64,000 nt of DNA from Laburnicola sp. R22_1. Taxonomy: Eukaryota > Ascomycota > Dothideomycetes > Pleosporales > Didymosphaeriaceae. Below, one piece after another: positions 8,258 to 44,100 of this stretch. Numbering within the stretch: the first letter of the stretch is position 1; the number at the start of each line of letters is the position of its first letter. A program made the position numbers and the translations under genes. The stretch is taken from assembly GCA_014281115.1 (NCBI GenBank), contig JACONQ010000018.1:186001-250000 (forward strand), written 5' to 3'. A model generated the notes under the pieces. The model was not told the DNA's origin. It saw nothing but the letters and a program-made list of their open reading frames with translations, and did no database searches.

Positions 8258-11200
8258 CTACATCCAGAAGGTGCTCTCGTCCAGATTCGGATGCCACGGG
8301 TTAAGCCTCTGCACGGCACCCTGGATGGCTTCTGGCGCGTAATGCGGGCCCCAGACAGTACGCGTGTTTGCTAGAATCCTAGCCTTTTCAGCTTTCCAGA
8401 TCTTGAACTCGTCTTTGCCCATGGGCTTCTTGGGGTTCTTGGCATCTTTCGGCGGACTGAAGGTGGGCTCCATGCGGGGGTTGGTCAGCCATGGGCGCAG
8501 GTAGACGCGGCCGCGCTCGCATAGTCCTGCATTTTGGTTAGCTGGTGGCAGAGAAGTGCGGGGATGGAAAATGCTTACTATCAGCGATATAGGCTGGAGA
8601 CGCGTAGGAAACGGCTTTTGTAGCGCGACCGAAGGTGCAGCAGAGGAGGTGCGTGAGGTGTGGAATATCCGGGAGTCGCTTGTCGGGTTGCTGGAGGACA
8701 TGGTAGTGCGCCGAGCGAGCAGTCCCTTGGATCGCACAGTGGGACTGTAGAAAGAAGTTATCCGGGCTGGGGTTCGTGACTACGCTGTCGACCAACAGAC
8801 CCGGCTTGAGATTGCCGTTATCGACACGGTTTCCGCTCCTGTCGTTGAATTTGTACGTATCGCCCTCTTTCATGGCGTAGAAGCGTGTGTGGTGGCGCTT
8901 TCCGACGACGATGAAGGTTATCCGCAGGTTGGCGGGATTGCCTCCGAGGTCGGTGTAGGCCTTTTGGATTTGTGGGATCTCGAAGGTGGAGCAGTCTTTG
9001 AACATGGATTCGCTGATTCCGTCGCGGTAGAAGATGATTTGGGTGGGGAGAAGGGTCTTTGTGTTTTTCTTGCGGAAGGCTGAGATGCGATCTTTGATCA
9101 TGCTGCGGAGGTGGTCTTGGTCGATGAACTGTGTCAAGTTAGCATACCTTATTATTCTTCGTTCCTGGATCGCGCGAGCAACTTGCCTCTTGGTTTCCAG
9201 CCTGCAGTCTCATTGAGCCGAAGTACGTCATGAACTCTTCATCTACAGTGCCGACAACGCATGCGATGCTAGGAGCTCCAAGTCGGGATCCAGAGCCGGG
9301 GTGTGTCACGTCGGCTCCAAGGATGAGCGTCTGTTTTCGTAGTTCTTTGCCGCCAAGGAGTTTTGAAAGAGTATCTGACTGTAGGTGCCAGTTGTTACCC
9401 CCATCCTTCATGTTGACCTTCAAAGCGAGATTGCCAAAAAAGTCATTCCGTCTAGTGGCGCTCTTCTGCCTCGAGTAATTAGACACGGTCACGCATAAAG
9501 TCGACCGGCCTGCATAGAGATCTCCCTTGCGCTTGATAGCGGCGTAAATATCGTAGTCTTTCTCTCTCAGACGCATGACGCTTAGATCATGTTCTTTAAT
9601 TCCGGACGCTGGATCGAACCAAGTGTTGAGCTCGGCCTCTAGATTCTGAGTCTGTACGCCGGTGTAATCCGCAGTGATGTTGATGTTGTAATTCCGAAGC
9701 ACTGTTGCAAATTCCGTGCAGAAGTTGGCCGTGTTGTCTTGTTGTAACTGTCCACGACCTCCTCCGAAGTTTGGTCCCGCGGGCCAACAGTCCCTTAATC
9801 CTAACACGTAAAGTTTCCGGTTGTTGTGGTATGGAGTGGATGCCAGGGTGACACCTCCGAGGTTCCAGGAGGCTTGTGGCATCGTCACGAGCTTTGTATC
9901 ACGCGACGCTGTGGTTTTAGACTTGAGTGGTCGTCCGAATTCTAGTCGAGGGAACGGTAATGTCTTTGCGGGCAGGGAGACTAGTGATGGAGAAACTGAA
10001 AAGCCTTGTTTCGACTGTGTATGTTTGGTTAGCATGCCTTTTACTAGCTGGGATCATTGTTCTAGGTCTCTTACCAGGTCTGATGAGGCACACGTAATGC
10101 CGAGCTTACTCAAGCCCTCCTGTTCGATCAGTCCGGCGTTTGCGGCGGGGAGACGCACAGCGCAGTCGATCATGTCCTTTGTGTGCTGCGCACCGAGTGT
10201 GGAAGCCATGTGCTGGTAGGGAAGAATCTCAAGGAGGCCGGCAGGAATCCAGATCGCACCTTGTAGTGACTGTTCTTCGGGCGATTTAGTGATATCCACT
10301 CTCTTGCCAACATTGACGCAAAGCAGCTTCTCGGAGTTTGTGTCGCCGCATTCTCGTGATAAGTTCACACTAGCTTCTATATGCACGGTTAGTAACAATA
10401 TTAAAACAACACTGAATGTAGCCTTGACATAATGACTTACCATTTTCCAAATAGTTTTTGACTGTGCGGAGAGTTCCGGGGTCTACACGTCGCGTCTGGT
10501 TGGGATCGGATTTGTCTTTAGGTAACACATCGCAGAACTCCTGGGAAGTCGCCTGAATCCCAAATTGAATGAAGCGTTTGCTGCGCGCGAGTTCGGTATT
10601 TGGATTGAAGTCTTCATACTCTCTCCTGCTGTACGCAATTCGAACCTCGGCATTCTTTAGCATAGACTCCACATATCTCTTCCCATTTGGACCATAGAAC
10701 CTCAGGAGTTCGGAGACGCGTATAGGCGGAAGAAATGTAGAAGTGGCGGTGTTAACATTGAGAAGGGGACCTCCTTCCGTCGGCCGGATCGAGAAATAGT
10801 ATCCCCGTACGAACAACAGTTCATGCTTGGGAACATAGCCGCAGTTGACGAAGAATTTGTTCGCACCAACTTGCTTGAGCGCATCCTTTGGGTTGTTCTT
10901 TATGGCTGACTTGGCGACGTGTGCATTCAGAGCACTAAGATAATCATTCAAGTCCGTGATGTGTTCTTGCCGAAGTGCGGCTTCGATGTTCGTGAGTTTG
11001 TTCGAAAACTTCACCGTGGCTCTCATATCGTCTACCCTCCTGCCGTTGAGCTGTGTGTACTCGAACGCATCAATGTCTTTCTCCCAAAACTCGCTAGTGT
11101 GATCGTCATGGTCCTGTAGTGGCGAGCTGCACCACAAGTCTTTGTAGTTCGTAGCCCAGGTGTTGCTGGATGTATCGAGCCCAAGTTTGCCACTATCGAG

Positions 11201-12004
11201 TAGAGCTTCGAAGATGCTACTAATTACATTCTTCTTGTTGTAATCAATTTTTGCACCAGCTATTGTTGGATGCGGACGCCAGAAGCTAAGCGAATACACG
11301 TACAGGTCTTGCGGGACCTGCTTGACCTGGACATAGTTCGTCAGAACCATGAGCGAAGAGGGAATTCCTAATTTTACGGGGGGGTTCTTCGGGATGTGCA
11401 CGCCATTCTCCTTGATATTCGGTCGGAACTGGTTTGGTGTCTGGAACTTTTTGAAGTCAAGGGTTACTGCCTTGTTGTTTTTATTGTCTTGGAATGCGTG
11501 TTTCGTAGGAGCCTTTGTCGAATGCGAAGTGTGCGAAGTGTGAATAGGGCCCCGCTTAGTGCTTGCAGGAGTGGATGTATCCGCAGAAGCTTTGGATGCC
11601 GAACCGGTACTTGATGGAGTCTTCAGCTCGTTGAACAGTGCTTCGGCCTCCATGCGTTTCTCCTCAACATTTGAGTCGATGTTCTCCGGCAAATCAAGCA
11701 GCGTCTTCAGATTCTTCTGAAAGTCATCCTTCTTAGCAACCAAGTCGTTCTCGTCTTTTGACAGACGTAGCTTCCGAACATCCTTCTTCGCCTGAAGCTC
11801 GGCGATCTCTCGAATCTTCCCTTCCAACTTGTTGATCTTGTTTCTATCTTGCGGTTTCTCTCGAGGCACCTTCGTCCAGCACTTTTCGAACACTGCCGTG
11901 CAAGCGCGCATGCTGTGATCTGGTGCGTCGCATCGGAGGCACGGCATGTCGTCGTTCTTGAATGCTGTTGCGAGTTTGTCCCGGTAGCTTGGTGGGAGAC
12001 GCAT
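8258..12004 (-). CDS. Argonaute 1 with N-terminal CCHC zinc knuckle
   Basis: PIWI-domain protein expected to bind a small RNA guide and cleave target RNA. Exons (transcript order) 12004-10441, 10376-10075, 10014-9187, 9128-8579 and 8526-8258 give 1170 aa. Order: CCHC knuckle C22-X2-C25-X4-H30-X4-C35; a charged, coiled-coil-prone linker; Argonaute N/L1-like region; a diverged PAZ-position region; L2, MID and PIWI. Catalytic residues: D857 (LGADVTHP), E898 (GNQE), D934 (FYRDG), D1081 (PAYIAD), a complete D-E-D-D set. QSHCAIQGTARSAHYHVL is the conserved pre-C-terminal block. The protein ends ..ESTFWM. Introns are 49-64 nt, except that 9129-9186 is read as a GC-AG intron (GCAAGT..ACAG), because the only GT donor nearby would leave a 19-nt intron. 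The knuckle is not part of standard QDE-2/Sms-2 Argonautes. Paralogous to the gene at 15844-19782. Confidence 0.93.
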
Positions 12005-12899
12005 GATGTGTGGTGTGCTGAGTTGATTGTAATGTAGATAGATTGTTTTTGAGAAGTGGTGTGGTAACTGAGTTGCTTTTCCGAATGGTGGAAGAGGATG
12101 GTGATAAGAAATGAAGCTGAGGCGAAGAGGAGACTCCTTATATACATCGCGGGAACGTCCTAAAACTCGCGAAGATTAATTATTTTGCGTTGTAAAAAAA
12201 AGTCTACGACATGGTTTCAGTCGAAGAAGCGGCGGCGAGACATGTTTGATTGACTTGAGTTGTGTTGTTTTGCTCGAAATCAAAGACAGCCTGCAGCTAT
12301 GGCATTGTCTTGAGACAAGCGCGAGACTAGCAACGGTGAAACAGACGATAGTAAATCTTGAAAGCGGGTTTTGCTCGCGAGACTTCCAAGTGAGACGGAC
12401 TGTTTGTTTTGCAAAGGAAATGAGACGGTGCCCGAGGTGACCCTTCCATGACTGTGACACAAGTCATAACGTAGACTATATGCTCAGGCGATCGAACTCG
12501 GCATGGTATGGACGTTTTTACAAGATGAAACACAAATGGCGCACTCGATTACTAGTCTGGCTTCAATAACACTTCTGTCACCTAGATCTTAACATCTGTA
12601 AGTTACGGTGTCGTTCTGAGCGGTCCTGCATTTTGGGTGTCCCAGATGCTCTTTTATTGTCGTGAATAACGTTTACAGATAATGTGACTAACGAACAGAT
12701 TATAATGCAGTAAATACAACACAAAAGGTCGCACAAAAAGATACGACAAAGGGCAGAACTGCTGCTGAGGTGAAGACAGGGTAAAGGTTGAGCCGCGACA
12801 GAAATACTATGAAGCCGTCAAATGCAGCGGGGATAGGAGGTTTCGGCACGAGTAGTGCCGAACTCAAATATCAAACTTAGAGCACGAAGCGTCCAAGTC
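12005..12899. other. Intergenic upstream of Argonaute 1
   Basis: Contains the Argonaute 1 promoter side (high-coordinate flank). Short open frames on both strands lack coding character or recognisable domains. No repeat was identified. Confidence 0.45.
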
Positions 12900-13560
12900 T
12901 TAGACCTGCGCATCGTCGCTTTCTTCTTCATCTTCCTCTTCTTCTTCTTCCTCCTCATCCTCATCCTCGTCGTCCTCTGTATTAACTGCAGAATTAGAGG
13001 CATAGTTAGAATTATCTTCCCAGTCGGACGGCGTCGGATCCCAATCGTCGCAATCGTCGTAGAGAGGGAAGCTTCTCCTGCCTCCCATGCCGCAATCCAC
13101 GTCCATAGCCACCATCCTCCCGTTTTTCCACGTAGTAATACTCTCACCTCCAGTCATAGAGGCAACCATCTGCGCCGCAGGTCCATCACCCACGGTTTCG
13201 CCAACGCGAATGCACAGACTTGGTCGTGCTCTGGAAAGCGTTCTGATTCTCCTGTCATTATACGCGACGGGCTGGTCGTCGAGATCCAGGTCTTGTAAGC
13301 GAGGCAGAAGATCTTCATTCGAAGCTAGCTGTTCGAAGCACTTGCCCCTGATACTGCCTTTGATCTTGTCATTCCCCGTTATGCTGATTGCTTCGAGCCG
13401 CGGTCAGTGCTTTGCTAGCACCAGGATCGAATCATCGGAAACTCTCACAGCGGAGACGAAGCAAACTTCGACAAGTCGGGGACAGGCCTGCGCGAGCGTA
13501 CTGATGGCACCATCAGATATACCTGTGCCATAACCGGTGTCAGTGTCCCCAACGTTCTTT
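12900..13560 (-). pseudogene. LRR (AMN1/F-box-LRR-like) protein remnant with in-frame stop
   Basis: Reading from about 13560 to a TAA at 12900-12902, the minus strand encodes leucine-rich repeats of the AMN1/F-box-LRR kind (ISDGAISTLAQACPRLVEV; then VSDDSILVLAKH and PRLEAISITGNDKIKG), ending in an acidic tail of consecutive Glu codons. A TGA at 13404-13406 sits where the repeat consensus wants Cys (KH-C-PRLE). The upstream ORF at 13540-14289 enters this frame only by a one-base shift near 13545. Both breaks suggest a decayed gene; a very unusual splice pattern is the alternative. The acidic tail is encoded by a TCTTC-type microsatellite. Confidence 0.6.
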
Positions 13561-14289
13561 CTCTCCAGCCCAGGCTCTGCCCCATGTATTTAGGGAGTTG
13601 AATGCGATGGTTGCTCCAGTTGGGTCATGGTCCGTGTCGCTTCCTGGTTCATTTTCTGATTCGTTTTCTGCATCACGACGCCGCATGACATCGCAATAAG
13701 ACTCATCAATGAGCTGAACATCATCAGAGGTCTGGAAAAAAACAAAAGTTGGAGGCGTGTTGATGGTCCATTCAACGCCCATCGCCCGCAGCTCCTGAAC
13801 ATTGGCTGAAAGGATCCGCTTGACCGCCGGAATATGCCTGAGTTCGTCGCAGGGACACCGCCTTCTGTGGTCGCACGTGATACATTCTTGCATCTTTACG
13901 CACAGGTTGGGATCCTTGTTCCAGTAGTCGGGTTCCGAATATAGTCGGCAGATACGTTCATCGCCAAGGAGACGGCCTGTCTCGCTCCTGAAATGTGCGT
14001 CCAGTTCCTTCTTCGTGAGTTCGGTACCGGGAAATGATGTAAGATGCTCGACTGTCACAGGTTGTTGGACGCCCGCAGTTTCTGCTGCTGACTTCAACCT
14101 TGCGACGTGACCTGGTTTTACAAAAAAGACGCCACCCGGGAAGACAGACGCGTATCTAGCTCCCATCCCTTGGTAACGCATTTTTCGCAAATCGGCAGCG
14201 CTCCAAATCTTCTCTGGAAAAGGCGATTCGATAATAAGTCCATCTCCCAACGGTCCTCCGTGCTCGAGGTAAGTCTTGTTAAAATACTG
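13540..14289 (-). CDS. Uncharacterised protein, probable 5' part of the broken LRR gene
   Basis: An open frame of about 240 codons begins after an acceptor-like TTCCAG near 14290 with YFNKTYLEHGGPLGDG and ends in a stop at 13540. It contains a Cys cluster (CITCDHRRRCPCDE) and an acidic C-terminal segment; no family is recognised. There is no good ATG in the first 35 codons, so an upstream exon is likely, perhaps in 14414-14689. The last codons overlap the start of the LRR remnant in a different frame, so the two may be one gene broken by a frameshift. Codon use is coding-like. Function unknown. Confidence 0.4.
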   Translation of the reverse strand, partial: QYFNKTYLEHGGPLGDGLIIESPFPEKIWSAADLRKMRYQGMGARYASVFPGGVFFVKPGHVARLKSAAETAGVQQPVTVEHLTSFPGTELTKKELDAHFRSETGRLLGDERICRLYSEPDYWNKDPNLCVKMQECITCDHRRRCPCDELRHIPAVKRILSANVQELRAMGVEWTINTPPTFVFFQTSDDVQLIDESYCDVMRRRDAENESENEPGSDTDHDPTGATIAFNSLNTWGRAWAGEKERWGH

Positions 14290-14413
14290 GAATTATCAAA
14301 TTAGGACTAGCGTCTTGCCAAGACCCACACAGAATAGCCAGATTTCCGACCTTACGTCTCCATGTACTTTAACAATCAACTAACTACTTTTGACTACCTT
14401 TTACGGCCTTTTT

Positions 14414-14689
14414 CTAACAAGTCTCAACATCATAGTTATCCGGCTCCTTGAAGCTGCCGTCGCGCTCTGCTTGTGTTGCTTGTTCACGGTTGTTGCGCAC
14501 ATTCGAAGGCCCGCGTTTCTTGTGGACACGTGCAGATTCCGACGCGACCGCACGCGTGTTCTCGTTCTTCCCACGCTGCGCCTGCCCTGTCCGTCCCCTG
14601 CTGCCCTGCTGCTGTGGGGTACGAACAGGTCGATTCATGTTGCGTGTGATGAGATAGGAGTCGATGGATGTTTGCCGGAAATGATCCAT
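14414..14689 (-). CDS. Small basic hypothetical ORF or 5' exon
   Basis: A 91-codon frame starting MDHFRQTSIDSYLITRNMN, followed by a Gln/Arg/Lys-rich segment and ending YDVETC. It may be a 5' exon of the ORF at 13540-14289, with which it shares strand and order. A donor that joins the two in frame was not found, so the link is speculative. Confidence 0.3.
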   Translation of the reverse strand: MDHFRQTSIDSYLITRNMNRPVRTPQQQGSRGRTGQAQRGKNENTRAVASESARVHKKRGPSNVRNNREQATQAERDGSFKEPDNYDVETC

Positions 14690-14990
14690 AGTGCATGAAG
14701 CAAGATAAAACGAAGAGTGAGGCACCGTGGGCTGGCAGTGATGTTGGGGAAGCTAGTACCGAATACGGTTTGCTTGACTCCTATTCGCTGATTTCAACAC
14801 CGGGCGTACCCTTGCACGTGCCTTGGAACGCACATCTTCACCTGCCCGTGAGGAGACCTGTATAAGGCGTAACCCAAATAGAAATACACAGGAAAATATA
14901 GGTAGATTATTATATAATCTGTGTTGGTGTAACGTATAGTAAGATAAAAGAATACACTGAGAACGTAAATCATTCAATTATTTTGCTACT

Positions 14991-15235
14991 GTAGACTCTT
15001 ACCTATAAGCACCGTCGTAACCGCATTTAGAATCCTTGTTAAACTAATTAGTAGCAGAATATCTAATACCTTTACAGCTTTCCCTTACAGCGTTGTACCG
15101 TATACCGAAAGGTCGGCGATGATTTTCACTCCTGATCTATTACCTTTAGCCTACAATTAGCCTAGCTAAAGAGGCTGATTAGTTTAATACAAATTCTACA
15201 TACGATTACGACGGTGCTTATAGGCAAGAGTCTAC
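14991..15235. mobile_element. 245-bp inverted-repeat (MITE-like foldback) element
   Basis: Arms 14991-15051 and 15175-15235 are reverse complements of each other over 61 nt with a handful of mismatches. The shared core is ACGACGGTGCTTATAGG on one arm and its complement CCTATAAGCACCGTCGT on the other. The differences look mostly like transitions, as RIP would leave. The 123-bp loop carries the ~60-bp segment also found at 7683-7739. No clear target-site duplication was seen at the outer ends. Confidence 0.75.
15076..15132. repeat. ~60-bp dispersed repeat, copy 2
   Basis: Same-orientation relative of 7683-7739, located inside the loop of the 14991-15235 inverted repeat. Shared blocks are AGCTTTCC, ACAGCGTT, CCGAAAGGT and GATTTTC. 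Confidence 0.5.
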
Positions 15236-15843
15236 GCTATCCGTTTGGCCTATTCTGATTATCGTGAATTGTTACCATTTTTTCATTCATTCATATCGGT
15301 TTATAGTCGACCTAACCTTTTAGAGATTATAAGACTTAACAGCACAACAACTAAGGTTTAATAGCTAAAGTACGTTAAAAAAAAAGGGCTCAATTGGATT
15401 GGCTATAGTGGAGAGCCGAACCACGACGCGATGATTGTAAAGGGCCGATCGCATGACGGCCACCTAGAACTAGTAGCAGGTGAGAATCACATGTGTGTGC
15501 GAAAGAATAAAATGTTCACAATGGCAACAAGTTGTCCGACAAAAGATTCCAAAGACAACAGGGATGAGATGGAGTTGAATACAAGCCAGACCCAAATTTC
15601 TTTTTTCAGAATACATGTTAGAAAGCATAGTCTACAAAAGGAAGTCTATCAAATCCCAGAATAAATCAGAACAAGAAATAAACTCTATGATCGAATATAG
15701 AGAACAGTAAGAAAGTCCCACTAGAAGAGAAAAATAGGAAATCCAACAACAAAGGAAAACGAGGAACTTGGAGTTTTCCACGACCTGATGCCCACCCAGC
15801 TGGCCATCATCTCAATCTCGCTTGCGCCTCAACCAACGCCCAT

Positions 15844-18800
15844 TTACATCCAGAACATCGTCTTACTAATGTTGTCATGCCAAGGGTTGCGCGGGGTGTT
15901 TGGATTACGGTAGAGCGCGCTCCTAGCTTGGCCCATTGCCCATTGGTTGCTCGAAGCTGAGATCTGAGCCTTATCATTTCTCACATCCACCATCTCTGCA
16001 TGGGTCTGCATACGCTTCCGGCCGTTTGGCAGGCGCTCAGGACCGTATCGGGCCATTCTAGCGTTACGAAGTTGGTCCTCATGGTTCCGCTTGGTAATTT
16101 CAGCTTGATTGCGAAGATTATTGCCTGTAGCTGTGCCGGTGCGCACGAAGAAGTCGCGGAGATAATGACGGCCACGCTCGCAGAGTCTATCTGCATAATA
16201 AGCGGGAGGGCAATAGCTTACTCCAGTTGTCGAGCGGACGTATGTGTAACATAGCTCGTGGGTCTTATGAGAGTGATTAGCGGTGATAAAAAGTAATTTC
16301 TGTGATGAGTAGTACGTACCAGCTGGCGTATATCGGCTTCAGTCATGTTCATTTCATTCTCGACAACAAAATAGTGTGCTGGTATAGCTGTTCCCTGGAG
16401 TGCAGCATGGGACTGTAGATAAAAGTCCATGTAGAAGGGCGAGGTGACAACATTATCGACTAACGTGCCCGGTCGGCAGTTTCCATTTCTTTCCGCCTGT
16501 CCGTCACTTGGTTTCACTGAGGCAGGATAAAAGCGGACATTGTGGCGCTTTACGCAGATGATGGCCGTGATATTTGGCATTTGCGAATTCGTATCAGCTG
16601 GAATTCCATTCTGGCCTTTTAACTTCTTTAGCTCATCCACTGCAGCGACGAATGCACTGCGGATCTTTGGCAGTTCAATCGCCTTGACCTGTTGGAATTG
16701 CTCGTCGCTCACACCATCGCGGTAATAGAGGATATTCTTTGGTAACAGATCCTCGTTATGGCTCAGTTTGTAGGCCTTCTGCTCGAGGACCCAATCTATG
16801 ATTCGCTCTTTGACTATAGACTCTACTTCGTCAATCATCTATAACTGTTAGCATGACACAATTTCTTGGAAGGTATCATGAATATACCTCTTTCTTGCCT
16901 TGGCTTTGCAAGCGCATCGAACCGAGAAAACGTCCAGCTTCATAGTCCACTGATCCCACGAATGCAGCAATTGATGGGCATCCTGCGATGGAAGTTGGAC
17001 CCGGGTGGGTAACATCAGCACCAAGGACCAGCGTATCGGAGAATGTATTTCTCAGCAATGTGCTGTCGATGGTGTGGTTGGCGCCCCTGGTCTTTAAATT
17101 CGCTTTCAACATCAGGCCACCTATCTTGTCGCCCAGATTACCCCTGAGGGAACTCTCCGTGACACAAATTGAGTGAATACCCAATTCACGATCAGCAATA
17201 TCCTTGAAATTTGCATAAGCGTCAGCGTCTTTGGTGGCCAGCACGAGTAGAAACAAGTCAGTTTCGTTCCTGTGTAGCCTCATCTGGGCGGACATCTGTT
17301 GGCGAACTGTAGGATTGTTGATACGGGCGATGCGACCCGTGACCATATCGGCGATACTGTAGTTGACATTCGCTCCAACTGGTCGACCAGCGAAATTCCT
17401 GAATTGTGTGATCCAATTTCCCACACGGTCTGGTTCTCGCAAGCGTTGATCGATCAACAGAGTCACCCTCATTACTTGCCAATTGCGATGGAGTAGCGGT
17501 ATACCCCTTGTATTCCAGTGATTCCTAGCGGTGACTATGCGATTCGGTGCGTTCAAAGTAGGCACGCCGTATTTGAGAGCCGGGAATTGCAGTATGCGGC
17601 TAGGTATCTTCATCATGCTTGTGTTTATGAGGAGAACTGGACATTGGGGCTGCGCAGAGGTGTTATTAGTATAAATTCTGGTTTGGACTGCAAATGACTT
17701 ACGAGGGGCTGACTGCCAGTGGAATTCGGGAGGAATCCCAAAGTCTCCATGCTTGAGTTTTCAATCAAGGCAGCATTGTCGTAGGGGTGGATGCATGCTG
17801 TTTCAATCATTCCCGCTGTCCAAGCTGATCGTAGTAATCCTCGGTATAACTGGAAAGGAATGATGCTGAGATGCTCTGGAGCATACCATTTCGGGTCGTG
17901 TCGTGACCCAAGATTCACTGCCCGCAAGTTTGGAGATCTCAATGTGATTCCTTGGGCTAGAAACATAGTTAGCAAATGCATATGCCGTGTATAATAGACT
18001 AGTCTTACTTGTTTCCAAATGCGTCCTAACGGAAATTCGCTGAGGCGGGGTAGCGTTGTTGGTGAAAGTTTGAGTCGCCACCGATGCGCCGAGACCCTGG
18101 ATCATCTTCGCACGAGATTGTTCACTATTCAATCTTGTGAACTCCTCTAAATCATTGGGATCACCCCTGTCATAATTTATGCGAACATAAACGCCCCTCA
18201 GCACGCTTTCCAATTCGTTCGCACCAAAAGCCTGGCCATCCCCCATGAGGTCACTGACCAGGATAGGACGATAGGAAGCACTTGTACGTGTTTGGACGTT
18301 GAGAATAAGTCTGTCGACACCAGGTTTAACCTGGTAGTAGAACCCTCGCGAAGTCTCAAGCGAACCGCAGTACCGACGGCCGGGACCATTACCACCATTG
18401 CTCAGTGATTCATAGGAGTCTTTCATGTAAAAACTATTCGCTCCAGTTTGAAACGTATTCGTAGTCGCTTCAGCGAAACATTTGGAGATGAGAATATTCA
18501 GGGCCGTTATCGTAGGCTGAAGGTCAACACTTGCAAAGTTACTGTCAGCAGTTATGTATCCAGCCAGACTTGCGATGTCGACTGTGCCCTCATATCGGAT
18601 TGATAGAGGTCTAGGTGTCGCACCATCCTGCACAGTAGTCAGAATCCACTCAGAACCCGGCCCGCCGGTACCGGAACCTATTGGTGGCTCCGAGATATGA
18701 CTATGTAAATTCGTCCATGCAATGATTGTGTTGAAATAGTCCGTAGCAAAACTTGCTTGGTTTGACCTCAAGAATGCACACTCTTCGATCGCAGTCCTTA

Positions 18801-19782
18801 TTATATCTTTGACCTTCTTCTTGCTCAAAGACGGGAAGGCTGGAAGGATTGTGTACTTGTAGAACACATGTGCATGTTTCGGGATGTCGACTTCAAAATG
18901 ATTGGTGTATACTTCAGAGTCCTTGGGCGCAAACACCTCCCGCCGGGGAAACTTCAATTTAGCCTCCTCCAGTGCTTGTAACCTGAGAGTTAAACTGGAA
19001 TCGGGCACGATAGTATTTGGCATCTTTGTGAGATCACCGCGCCGCGGTCTCACACCAGGGGCAGGCTGATCTCGCGGCGGAGCTTCACGTACAACTTCTC
19101 GAAACACGCCGGGTCGTCCTAGTGGTGCCTGTGTAGATCCTTGCGTCGTCGGGGCGGCTTGATTGGTTGATAACCCCATACCAGATGGCACACCTGCAAC
19201 CATGGCTTTGTTCCTGACATTGAAATCCTGCAAAAGCCGTGAAGACCCTTGAGTTGTTGAAGCGGCTTGATCTGTTGCGGGCTGTTTGTCCTTTGGGGTC
19301 TTTTCTCGTATCCACTCCTCTCGGAACTCATCGAGCTCGGGATTGGTAGATGTGGGCCCAAGCGTCGTTGATGTGGCTTGTTTAGCTTGATCTGTTCCTG
19401 AGTTTTTGCCGAAAAGATCTTCGTCAGTCGGTCCTTCAAGTATTTCTGATGAATCAAGACCCGGCGGGGCGGCTGGGTCCTCTTCTTCACCTGATGATGT
19501 AATGTTCAATCCTGCCATAGTACCGGTTACTGCCACCGCCTCACTGCCCTGTACATTGTCACTAGATCCGGAGTGTCTGGCCCTCTCCTCCTCTTGCTCG
19601 TCTTTCAAGTAAGCGTTGGCCGGTTTGATTTGCCCTTTCGGTACCAGCTCCCAGACGTTTCCATTCTGCTTAGCTTCTTCTTTGCATTCAATCAAGGTGT
19701 GGTTCCCATAGCATCGTCCGCATGGCGCCTTATGCAGGTTCGTATCGATTCTCCTCTTGTTGAAATCACTGAGTTCTGCCAT
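15844..19782 (-). CDS. Argonaute 2 with N-terminal zinc knuckle
   Basis: Second PIWI-domain Argonaute. Exons 19782-18009, 17956-17703, 17649-16888, 16838-16320 and 16263-15844, with GT-AG introns of 49-56 nt, give 1242 aa. The N-terminus has a knuckle C21-X2-C24-X3-H28-X4-C33, then about 200 residues of disordered Ser/Thr/Gln-rich linker containing three imperfect repeats around DQAASTTQGS, then the Argonaute core. Slicer residues: D888 (LGADVTHP), E930 (GKKE), D971 (YYRDG), D1128 (PAYYAD). LCYTYVRSTTGVSYCPPAYY is a textbook PIWI C-terminal block. It ends ..KTMFWM. Intron positions after L2, after the Glu-finger residue and near the C-terminus mostly match Argonaute 1, supporting duplication, but sequence divergence is high, so the duplication is old. 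Expected role: guide-directed RNA silencing. Confidence 0.94.
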
Positions 19783-21204
19783 TTTTATACAAGCGAGTAG
19801 GATATTGAAGTGTGGTAGTGGAAACGATATTCATGCGTCGAATGGTGATGCTTAGATGATGGCGCAGCCCATGCATTATATGTTCAGCTGACGATTGAGG
19901 TTTGCCTATGAGTTCTGTAATAACGGTAGAAACCGCAACATTCAGGAGAAGAAAACAAGCAAAGCGGTGCAACTGACCAATTGCTGCAAGTTTACATGGG
20001 AGCCGCAAATTACATCCAAAGGCAAAAACAAAGCAGAATCCCAACAAAACATCGACTGAAGGATGCGGCTGCTTGTTAGCAAAGCTCACAAGCCTCCCGA
20101 GTCACAACAATCATCATCGTCAAACCCAAAATATTCCCCCGTGACTGCTTTGTCACTGTTGAAAACACGAGAAGTTAGAAAGCTTTCCAAACAAAACAAA
20201 ATTGAACGCTTCCAAGCCGCACAGAACTTGCAATCAAAGAAGCACAACGCAAAGAAAATGAATCGAAAACCATTCTAGGAAACATAAAAACAAAGACCAA
20301 ATATTGACAAGCAGAATGGTCGCGCGATAGACACATGTTTCCTGTTTTAGAGAAAGAAAAAACAAACGCAAACTGAATTCTGGCGTCAGACAAACACAAA
20401 ACACACCACAATCGACAAATTGCAAGTTATCGAGGAAGGGAATACTTGTAAAAGGTCAAATTAAACATACATTTTACTAAGCACAGTGAGTGAAAAAAAG
20501 TAGAAGATTTCAGGGATCGCTTTTACAGTTTCGTGGCACCAGGATCTCTAATTTGAATGCATTTTTGGACAATACTACTTATACAAGCGGATAGGATGTA
20601 TTATAACTGCTGTAAAGCCCGATTCTTTTCATGTATCCTGCATGAGGGGTAACATGGTCGCACAATTACATAGAACGTCGTGATTGCAATGTTGAGAATG
20701 TTTGAGAAGTCACTGTACTTTTGTGAAAAAATAGCTATACTATAGCATATCCGACCTACCATCGGCAATATGTGTAAACTTATCAGCTCGCAGAATCTGC
20801 AATATGTCTGTTATTTAAGATAAGTCGATTATGATTCTATGTGCTAGATGAGAAGAATGCTATGGAGTAAAACCTCCCTACAGCGCGCAGCTTTCAAAAC
20901 TAACTCTAAGCAAAGAGAAAGTACGTCCCCAACCAAAGTCAAAATACCCAAAACAGCCCATAGAAAAATACACCTGAACTCCAAGACCTCCCATTCAATA
21001 CATAGTCTATTACAAGAGCACAAGCAGCCTATCCCTCTCATCCTCCAACGCCTCCCTAACAACATACCTACCCATCCTCGGGGTAAAATACCTTCTTGCT
21101 CTCCACCATCGTCTCACCTGTGTAATTGGGGTAAACTAGAAGACCGCAAAGCATGCTGCGATAACCGCTGCAGAATGTGCCACGCTCTTAGTTGACGATC
21201 TGCC
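19783..21204. other. Intergenic upstream of Argonaute 2
   Basis: The Argonaute 2 promoter lies at the low-coordinate end. The stretch is A-rich on the plus strand (about 20080-20420), with no domain-bearing ORF. The short plus-strand frame at 20848-21195 looks like antisense to a 3' UTR. Confidence 0.45.
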
Positions 21205-21687
21205 CTATACCGCATCGAAGGCCTGCTCTATAAGACAGTTTCCGCATCTGTGGTGGCTATTGCACAAAATGCAGGAAGTGTAGAGACTCATGTTGAACGG
21301 TCCGTAGCCGCAGGTGCAACAATGCCAGAAATATTCTACCACTGGAGCCACCGCTGGAGCCGAAGCCGAAGCCATAGTCGGGACCTGGCTTGAAGCCTGA
21401 GCCGGCGGTGCAGGTCGATTTCTAGCCTTCTCTTTTTCCTTGTCAGATTGTGGATCATTATTGTCCATGACCCACGCGCCCTTGAGACTGTGCAGGAACT
21501 CTCTCGCACTATCCTGCTGGTTCTTGGGCACATAACTTAAAACTCCAGTGTTTATGTTGTACTGCGGGCAATCGATGCACCTATGTGAGGGATCACGGCA
21601 GCCGATGCAGGGCTTGATCAATATGTGATCCCTGATTCTCTCTTTTGCCTCGGGCGGAAGGGAGGTGTTTTTCTCGGGGGACGCCAT
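21205..21687 (-). CDS. Small double zinc-motif protein (CCHC knuckle plus C-terminal Cys-rich ribbon)
   Basis: Single-exon gene of 160 aa, taking the Met at 21687 (MASPEKNTSLPPEAK) as start; the frame stays open upstream to an ATG at 21813, so an N-terminal extension cannot be excluded. The N-terminus has C27-X2-C30-X4-H35-X4-C40, the same spacing as Argonaute 1, preceded by a similar amphipathic stretch (PPEAKERIRDHILIKP here, PPSYRDKLATAFKNDDMP in Argonaute 1). The middle is charged and Ala/Pro-rich. The C-terminus has a second Cys/His cluster (HCCTCGYGPFNMSLYTSC then CILCNSHHRCGNC) like the small Zn-ribbons found in many fungal proteins. It lies about 1.4 kb upstream of Argonaute 2 on the same strand. 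Function unknown; a nucleic-acid-binding partner is an inference. Confidence 0.7.
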   Translation of the reverse strand: MASPEKNTSLPPEAKERIRDHILIKPCIGCRDPSHRCIDCPQYNINTGVLSYVPKNQQDSAREFLHSLKGAWVMDNNDPQSDKEKEKARNRPAPPAQASSQVPTMASASAPAVAPVVEYFWHCCTCGYGPFNMSLYTSCILCNSHHRCGNCLIEQAFDAV

Positions 21688-41878: not shown

Positions 41879-43020
41879 TAATAATAAAAAAAGCGCGTTT
41901 AAATTACTAAGCGAGCTTAGTAGTCTTAGCGTAGGACTGCTCTTATAAGCAAAATTTTTACAAAGAGACTACTTAGAACTTTAGAAGAGATAAGACTTTA
42001 GCGTAGCTATACTATAAGCTATCTCTCTTCTACTATCCTAAGTTATAAACTACTATTCTAAGTTATAAACTACTATTTAGATTATTGCAAATAATATAAG
42101 TTAATATATTAATAGGTATATTTCTTATAAGTAGTAGAATAAGAATAACACGTACTAGATATACTATTACTCTATTACTATATTAAAGTTATTCTTAATA
42201 AATCTTCTTCTATTACTATTTTTCTACGCCCTACTATTTATTTAAGTATTAATATTATTCCTAAAAAGTTACTTACTGCTGTTAAAAAGTATATACTATA
42301 GTTTCGCGCTACTACTACTAAGGTAATAACACTAAAGTTCTATTCTATTTATAAAATAATTGTCTATAAAAGTCTAGTATACCTAACTATCTAGGAGGCA
42401 ATCCTTATATACTAGCTAGGTTAGTAGCTTATTTAGTTCTTAAAGACTAGTAAGTCTATGGTTCTACTCTAGTAGAAGCAATTACTCTTTATTAGTAATA
42501 GAATCCTCTAGTAGGGGACGTAAGAAAATAATAAGGCGTTTATTAATAAGCTATAAGGTAGTAAGAGTATTATATAGATCTATAAGATTCTTTTAGCTAT
42601 TATTACTATTATTGCTATTAAGTTAGCTTATCTAAGTAAGTATACCGCATAAGCGGCGTGTAAGCGTAAATAACTAATAATAGTAGTAGTAATTAGCTAG
42701 ATGTGCTATATATAGTGTAAGTAAATCCTATATAGGTTAGAAGCTTATAAGGTATAGATAGAATGTAAGCAGGTTTAAACTATTATTATATTATTAGGTA
42801 GTGTTTAAGGTTAGTCTTTAATTAGAATTAGGTGCTATACATAGTATATAATAATCTTCTATCTTAACCTACTTTAACCTCAAACTAAAATAAAGGTTAA
42901 AAAAGGTGTTTGGCAAGCTAATAAAATTAACACTATATTCTACTTCTAGACAGTTAATTTAATACTATATATTAGATATAAATTTTAGTAAAAAATATTA
43001 AAAGTTGTTTTTATAATTAC

Positions 43021-43123
43021 TTTTTACACTTTGTTTAATTTCTAAATAAAAGCTCTACTTTTTTATTATATTATTTAAAATAAAAGACTTTATTATACTA
43101 CCTTTAAGTTAATTAAATTAACA
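43021..43123 (-). mobile_element. ~107-bp element copy C (highly AT-converted)
   Basis: Reverse-oriented relative: AAAGCTCTACTTTTTTATTA and ATTTAAAATAAAAGACTTTA match the family core after C-to-T and G-to-A changes. Confidence 0.6.
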
Positions 43124-43128
43124 CTATG

Positions 43129-43236
43129 TATTGTTAAATTATCTATCTAGAGGTAGAATAATAAAGGCTTTTATCTTAAATAATATAATAAAAAAGCAGA
43201 GCCCCTACTTAGTAATTAAAAAGATTATAAAAAGAT
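43129..43236 (+). mobile_element. ~107-bp element copy D
   Basis: Begins TATTGTTAAATTATCTATCT and carries AAAGGCTTTTATCTTAAATA and CAGAGCCCCTACTTAGTAAT. Confidence 0.7.
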
Positions 43237-43269
43237 AATTACTAAATTAACACTATATAAATATAAAAG

Positions 43270-43370
43270 TTATACTCTTTTTAATTACTATGTAGAAGTC
43301 TCTACTTTTTCTTATATTATTTAAGATAAAAGTTTTTATTATTTTATTTATAGGTAGTTAATTTAATAAT
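43270..43370 (-). mobile_element. ~107-bp element copy E (AT-converted)
   Basis: Reverse-oriented relative: ATACTCTTTTTAATTACTAT at one end and TATAGGTAGTTAATTTAATA at the other. Confidence 0.6.
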
Positions 43371-43499
43371 ATATATATATAATAATATCTTTTATTAATA
43401 CTACCTTAAAACGCTTTTCTATGTTAATAATAGTAGAAGGGATAACTACTATTATTATAATATTTTTATTAGAAACTCCTTAGTCTCGAAAAAAACTAT

Positions 43500-43609
43500 G
43501 TATTATTAAATTATTTATTTAAGGGTAGGACAATAAAGGCTTTTATCTTAAATAATATAATAAAAAAAGTAAAGCTCCCTACTTAGTAATTAAAAAGAGC
43601 GTGAAAAGG
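43500..43609 (+). mobile_element. ~107-bp element copy F
   Basis: Carries AAAGGCTTTTATCTTAAATA and CTCCCTACTTAGTAATTAAA, ending GAGCGTGAAAAGG directly before copy G. Confidence 0.7.
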
Positions 43610-43610
43610 T

Positions 43611-43722
43611 ATGTGGCGTTAATTAAATCTACCTAGAGGTAGGACGACAAAGGCTTTTATCTCAAATAACATAACAAAAAAAGCAGAGCCCCCTGCTTAG
43701 TAATCAAAAAGAGCGTAAAAAA
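43611..43722 (+). mobile_element. ~107-bp element copy G (least mutated)
   Basis: Keeps C and G at many sites that are T and A in the other copies (CTCAAATAACATAACAAAAA; GCAGAGCCCCCTGCTTAGTA). It is adjacent to copy F, head to tail, with about 1 bp between them. Confidence 0.75.
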
Positions 43723-44100
43723 GGTGATTACAAAAAAAAGGTAAAAGGGTATATATTATATAATAATTAGAAATAAGTTATTAAATATATATTATATATA
43801 TAAATTTACGTAAATAAGTTATTCTTTAAGCCCTAGCTGTATATAGTTAGGGATGCGTGCCGCGCAGTAGATTGATGCGTGCCATGTAGTCTCGCCAAGC
43901 TGTGGTTGCCGCTGTCGCATTAACTCATCTAAGCGAGTAAGCCGCGTGAGCGGCGTGCGAGCGCGGATGGTCGGCGATAGCGATCATAATTTATAAAAGG
44001 CTAGGTTAACTATAAACAGATAGAAATAAATAAAAAATACTATAGGGAGGCAGCTAAGTTGTTAGCACACTTTGGGAAAACACCGATCGACAAGTTTTAC

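Follow-up and report, generated by a model that had tools for sequence, protein, structure and literature searches.

Why should two Argonautes and a small neighbouring protein of one fungus all begin with a similar zinc-knuckle motif? The question is raised by a 64-kb stretch of the Laburnicola sp. R22_1 genome (63.9 Mb, 26 contigs), the window analysed here (bases 186001-250000 of contig C10), which carries the Argonaute genes Ago1 and Ago2 and, 1.4 kb upstream of Ago2 on the identical strand, a small gene (Table 1). An earlier note had described these three minus-strand genes within positions 8258-21687 and a putative knuckle in each, with Pro or Ala-Pro before the first Cys. A motif scan reproduced every spacing and residue position exactly, the dipeptides MP, AP and KP directly precede the three knuckles, and the gene models agree on strand and extent, with both Argonautes intact and bearing a DEDD tetrad. 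The knuckle belongs to a 60-80-residue helix-knuckle-helix head, which sequence comparisons place at the N-terminus of many members of a group of fungal Argonautes distinct from the QDE-2 type; the same comparisons identify the small gene as a probable detached copy of the head, joined to a cysteine-rich ribbon.

Both window Argonautes match Piwi above the curated cut-off of 28.9 bits (Ago1, 202.9 bits, E 8.9e-60; Ago2, 205.5 bits, E 1.4e-60), and among PDB matches of Ago2 KpAGO ranks best (183.6 bits) and QDE-2 second (179.9 bits). No PAZ match at E <= 1 was obtained in either protein, and that of the Ago2 ortholog P0121 lies below cut-off. A third knuckle Argonaute, Ago3, lies at 158.8-162.7 kb of the same contig, 23 kb outside the window; its knuckle (CX2CX5HX4C, residues 26-40) is overlooked by the strict motif. 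Ago1, Ago2 and Ago3 all carry the DEDD tetrad in columns aligned to D597/E637/D669/H807 of human AGO2, which we take to be its catalytic residues, and by this tetrad we infer that the three are slicer-competent. In both Ago1 and Ago2, exon 1 encodes the knuckle and the beginning of the Argonaute core in a single uninterrupted frame, and their joining therefore does not depend on splice choice. Across all six frames, the strict motif is present five times in the window: at the three reported sites, once in the ribbon of the small protein, and once in a minus-strand open reading frame (ORF) opposite a GT8 gene. A looser motif is found in 76/230 Argonaute N-termini (150 residues) and in 5/1260 downstream 150-residue Argonaute windows. 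The window knuckles are atypical: the Gly-His of canonical knuckles is absent from them, and PF00098 has no match at E <= 1 in Ago1, Ago2 or the small protein. Both kinds of knuckle occur in the Periconia digitata Argonaute P0163, where a canonical CCHC knuckle is followed by an atypical window-type one (residues 4-55).

Likeness between heads reaches past the 14-residue motif: aligned heads run from a helix through P-C-x2-C, His, Cys and often an aromatic residue into a second helix. AlphaFold predicts the first 80 residues of the small protein (18-row alignment) at a mean predicted local distance difference test score (pLDDT) of 71.8, with helices at 12-22 and 55-75 on either side of the knuckle. 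For P0121 (54 rows), ten-residue block means are 63-89 at residues 11-100, fall to 25-52 across the linker at 101-190 and are mostly about 90 in the core, and human Argonautes align with the model across about 880 columns. For this one ortholog, the prediction is thus of a head folded separately from the core, with a disordered tether between them. In Ago1, Ago2, the small protein and six relatives tried, the knuckle is covered by no Pfam family; a sub-threshold IFT20 match in Ago1 (E 0.07) starts at residue 73, beyond the knuckle. When the three window heads are combined in a profile, its best PDB matches are knuckles of the HIV-1 nucleocapsid, though weak ones (E 0.03-0.06).

How the head is distributed was examined on a tree of 230 rows, comprising 224 different relatives (the best 120 from each of two protein searches, out of 123 and 258 respectively, none dropped) and six sequences from this genome; a decayed Argonaute gene at 129 kb of C10 and a fragment on C2 were left out. 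The tree was built from MID-PIWI without the head (452 columns, quick search, support from the Shimodaira-Hasegawa-like approximate likelihood ratio test, SH-aLRT, only), and knuckles were scored by the loose motif within the first 150 residues. All 76 knuckle rows fall in one 159-row group (support 91; an inner 153-row group, 96). The 71 rows outside it, 52 with the QDE-2-like gene of this genome, 18 in another group and one alone, hold no knuckle, which bears out the earlier statement that standard, QDE-2-type fungal Argonautes lack it, although QDE-2 itself is not a row. The expectation that knuckle Argonautes would form their own clade held only in part: they share one group, but 83 of its 159 rows lack the motif. 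By eye, some of these knuckle-less rows are models that start late and others have different N-termini, for example RGG-rich ones. Fisher's test for knuckle against group gives 5e-16, a value that ignores the relatedness of rows, and an earlier 126-row tree gave an unchanged picture. The species names we recognised in the group are, as we place them, mostly Dothideomycetes, and many rows are unnamed metagenome proteins; knuckle-bearing exceptions include Lachnellula (Leotiomycetes) and Candelina (Candelariomycetes). Within the group, Ago1 and Ago3 belong to one 15-row set (support 100), and Ago2 groups with P0121 of Didymosphaeria variabile and P0122 of Paraphaeosphaeria minitans (SH-aLRT 99). 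Because they are placed apart, we read Ago1 and Ago2 as old paralogs rather than a fresh tandem duplication.

Profile comparison supports the suggestion of the earlier note that the small protein shares its module with the Argonautes. Against it, a profile built from the heads of P0121, P0122, P0130 and P0135, all Didymosphaeriaceae, scores 35.5 bits (E 7e-9), a level reached by 0/10000 full shuffles and 0/10000 shuffles with Cys and His fixed (best 27.0). All twenty heads together give 40.9 bits (best fixed shuffle 32.1), and seven other Ago2-type heads give 25.7 bits (0/10000 in each control). The best single stretch, against P0135, is 47% identical over 32 residues. Searched against the 64-Mb genome, with only the best candidates scored, the P0122 head has the small gene as its single listed match (E 5.4e-5). 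Ago2 itself carries a different head, scoring 2.7 bits against the Didymosphaeriaceae type and 60.6 bits against the other Ago2 type. A protein search for homologs of the small protein gave 81 candidates, none with a match at E <= 1. Its C-terminus has no Pfam family at E <= 1 and lacks the RanBP2-type pattern W-x-C-x(2,4)-C-x3-N-x6-C-x2-C; a related ribbon lies elsewhere in the genome (C26:114241-114369, 48% over 42 residues).

Heads and cores, moreover, tell different histories. Among Didymosphaeriaceae genera, Ago2 shares 61% of its core and 18% of its head with P0121, and 56% and 19% with P0122, whereas P0122 shares 41% of its core and 62% of its head with P0130, and 39% and 66% with P0135; concordant pairs also occur (P0121-P0122, 57% and 50%; P0130-P0135, 73% and 59%). 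In Alternaria, P0123 and P0151 have cores 35% identical and a local head score of 52, where pairs with 30-40% core identity have a median of 8 and reach 14-20 at the 95th percentile. Of the 2850 pairs of knuckle rows, 40 have fewer than 400 shared core columns and were excluded; in the remaining 2810, head and core correlate weakly, with a Spearman coefficient of 0.19. Heads therefore appear to evolve discordantly from cores, through exchange or conversion between paralogs within lineages. We favour exchange because fast divergence accounts for low head identity, not for high identity on distant cores.

What the head does is a matter for interpretation. We propose, with confidence evenly divided between belief and doubt, that it is a docking cartridge, of which the small protein represents a detached copy with a role in trans. 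The head would be a zinc-stabilised module on a tether, guiding slicer-competent Argonautes to a ligand common to the paralogs of one species; RNA is slightly less likely to be this ligand than a protein partner. Acting as adaptor or competitor, the small protein would recognise that ligand in trans and either connect it with whatever its ribbon binds or keep the two apart. Such a role is plausible because GTSF1 and Stc1 are known small zinc proteins that serve Argonautes. The lean towards a protein ligand follows from the missing Gly-His and from the near-neutral net charge of the first 80 residues in three of the four local heads (small protein, Ago2, Ago3).

Several results weigh against this proposal. 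The score of the seven Ago2-type heads is barely above the best Cys/His-fixed shuffle (25.5), and nine Ago1-type heads match the small protein no better than chance (1.0 bit, 1093/10000 shuffles as good). Plain head identity is low, 24-25% to the four Didymosphaeriaceae heads (83 columns) and hardly less, 22%, to Ago2 (80 columns). The heads of Ago1, Ago2 and Ago3 went unlisted in the genome search that found the small gene, fast divergence alone can also give low head identity, and to the many knuckle-less rows of the group parsimony adds 38 changes of knuckle state on the tree. The first 80 residues of Ago1 are basic (+20/-12), 14/76 knuckle N-termini carry canonical CX2CX3GHX4C knuckles, sometimes in tandem (P0038, P0078), and the nucleocapsid likeness, if weak, is there; together these lean towards RNA. 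A knuckle that mainly binds RNA, as in retroviral nucleocapsid, and raises affinity for target or precursor RNA, with the small protein as RNA chaperone or competitor, is accordingly a possibility to take seriously but a rather unlikely one: the window knuckles lack both the Gly-His and a PF00098 match, and in three of the four local heads the charge is near neutral.

The small gene might instead be a relic, the ancestral Ago2 head split off by gene fission or a stray copy, with a ribbon captured later and no function in trans. The heads of the Ago2 orthologs P0121 and P0122 match it while Ago2 bears another type, and the only genome match listed for the P0122 head adjoins Ago2. However, the linker of the orthologs could not be recognised convincingly between the small gene and Ago2, and the small ORF is probably under selection because both its ends match other proteins and its frame is open; we consider this account unlikely. 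Repeated gain of knuckles, for instance from retrotransposon Gag, would make the head likeness convergent, and canonical knuckles are indeed scattered in the group, with ten changes between canonical and atypical forms among the 76 rows. Yet the four-head match to the small protein spans the first to the second helix and withstands the Cys/His-fixed control, which makes convergence improbable. As the downstream control windows illustrate, knuckle-like motifs can arise by chance, but a chance motif or gene-model artefact is largely contradicted by the shared frame and exon and by 76/159 knuckles inside the group and none of 71 outside, and we give it hardly any credence. A bolder variant, in which freestanding head genes beside Argonautes act both as donors and as trans-acting copies, and recombinational head replacement re-targets slicers much as immune receptors exchange recognition domains, seems to us a long shot.

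Table 1. Features of the Argonaute locus, in window coordinates
Feature	Position	Strand	Description
Ago1 gene	8258..12004	minus	5 exons, 1170 aa; gene model
Ago1 exons	12004-10441, 10376-10075, 10014-9187, 9128-8579, 8526-8258	minus	
Ago1 zinc knuckle (putative)	11900..11941	minus	residues 22-35, C-X2-C-X4-H-X4-C
Inter-Argonaute ORFs (two)	13543-14292, 12903-13403	minus	no Pfam family over cut-off
Ago2 gene	15844..19782	minus	5 exons, 1242 aa; gene model
Ago2 exons	19782-18009, 17956-17703, 17649-16888, 16838-16320, 16263-15844	minus	
Ago2 zinc knuckle (putative)	19684..19722	minus	residues 21-33, C-X2-C-X3-H-X4-C
Small gene	21205..21687	minus	single exon/ORF, 160 aa; knuckle head and C-terminal Cys-rich ribbon
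Small protein zinc knuckle (putative)	21568..21609	minus	residues 27-40, C-X2-C-X4-H-X4-C
Small protein Cys-rich ribbon	21235..21321	minus	residues 123-151

The modelled introns of Ago1 and Ago2 are 49-64 bp long and GT-AG, apart from the third intron of Ago1 (9129-9186), which was modelled with a GC donor (GC-AG). One of the two ORFs between the Argonautes (12903-14292) encodes a long acidic tract. The locus is bordered by Nup188 on one side and by a mitochondrial carrier on the other. Farther along the window, positions 42001-44000 form an AT-rich block (25.7% GC, the remainder being 45-61%) with a strong signature of repeat-induced point mutation (RIP; TA/AT 1.59).

Beyond the window, a genome-wide Piwi search returned 12 matches, which include separate exons of one and the same gene. 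The QDE-2-like gene, AgoC9 (C9:1875 kb), has QDE-2 as its best PDB match (209 bits) and no knuckle motif, and a further Argonaute gene at C21:3448 kb carries DEDH. Others look degraded: an apparently decayed Argonaute at C10:129-132 kb (locus L009, 3650-6540) has broken frames and stops when read without intron modelling, with no sign of RIP in its dinucleotide indices; a QDE-2-type gene at C21:2296 kb (locus L013, 5100-6570) has three in-frame stops and adjoins retrotransposon-like ORFs that we take to be Copia-like; and C2 holds an Argonaute fragment. Near the decayed C10 gene lies a transposase-like ORF (L009, 966-2659), presumably pogo/CENP-B-like. Loci for RNA-dependent RNA polymerase (three without stops, one with several, at C20:3981-3982 kb) and two Dicer-dimer loci were also found, and therefore an RNA-interference kit is present. 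Genes of this pathway may have been duplicated and lost often in this genome.

New here are the head-core discordance and the finding of the small gene by the head of an Ago2 ortholog, P0122. No description of knuckle Argonautes was found among titles and abstract beginnings of open-licence papers, where a description could have gone undetected, and the word zinc is absent from the main text of PMC8303167, PMC4290597, PMC12477606, PMC7763443 and PMC12560822.

If our proposal is true, slicers could be addressed in a new way, through a folded, exchangeable head that occurs in a large fungal group and of which a detached copy stands next to an Argonaute of the corresponding lineage. Guide loading and GW proteins provide most of the current explanation for the division of labour among eukaryotic Argonautes, and the head offers a testable approach to the question of why fungi of this kind maintain several of them. 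QDE-2-type fungal Argonautes resemble Ago1 and Ago2 in having PIWI with a DEDD tetrad, but they sit with AgoC9 in the knuckle-free 52-row group, apart from the 159-row group of Ago1, Ago2 and Ago3. With the CCHC knuckle of PF00098 (retroviral nucleocapsid, CNBP), Ago1 and the small protein have the C-X2-C-X4-H-X4-C spacing in common; unlike it, the local knuckles have no Gly before His, vary to X3 in Ago2 and X5 in Ago3, and stand between two predicted helices. Passages of PMC9539491 describe GTSF1/Asterix and fission yeast Stc1 as small zinc-finger partners of Argonautes. The small protein, with its probable zinc modules and possible adaptor-like role, is similar in outline, Stc1 being likened by description only, but the GTSF1 motif CPX4HX9HX3C is absent from it and from Ago1, Ago2 and Ago3, and its head is of a type common to Argonautes themselves. 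Finally, disordered N-termini are attributed to eukaryotic Argonautes in parts of PMC12477606, and a disordered stretch likewise precedes the core in the model of P0121, where, in contrast, a head predicted to be folded comes before it.

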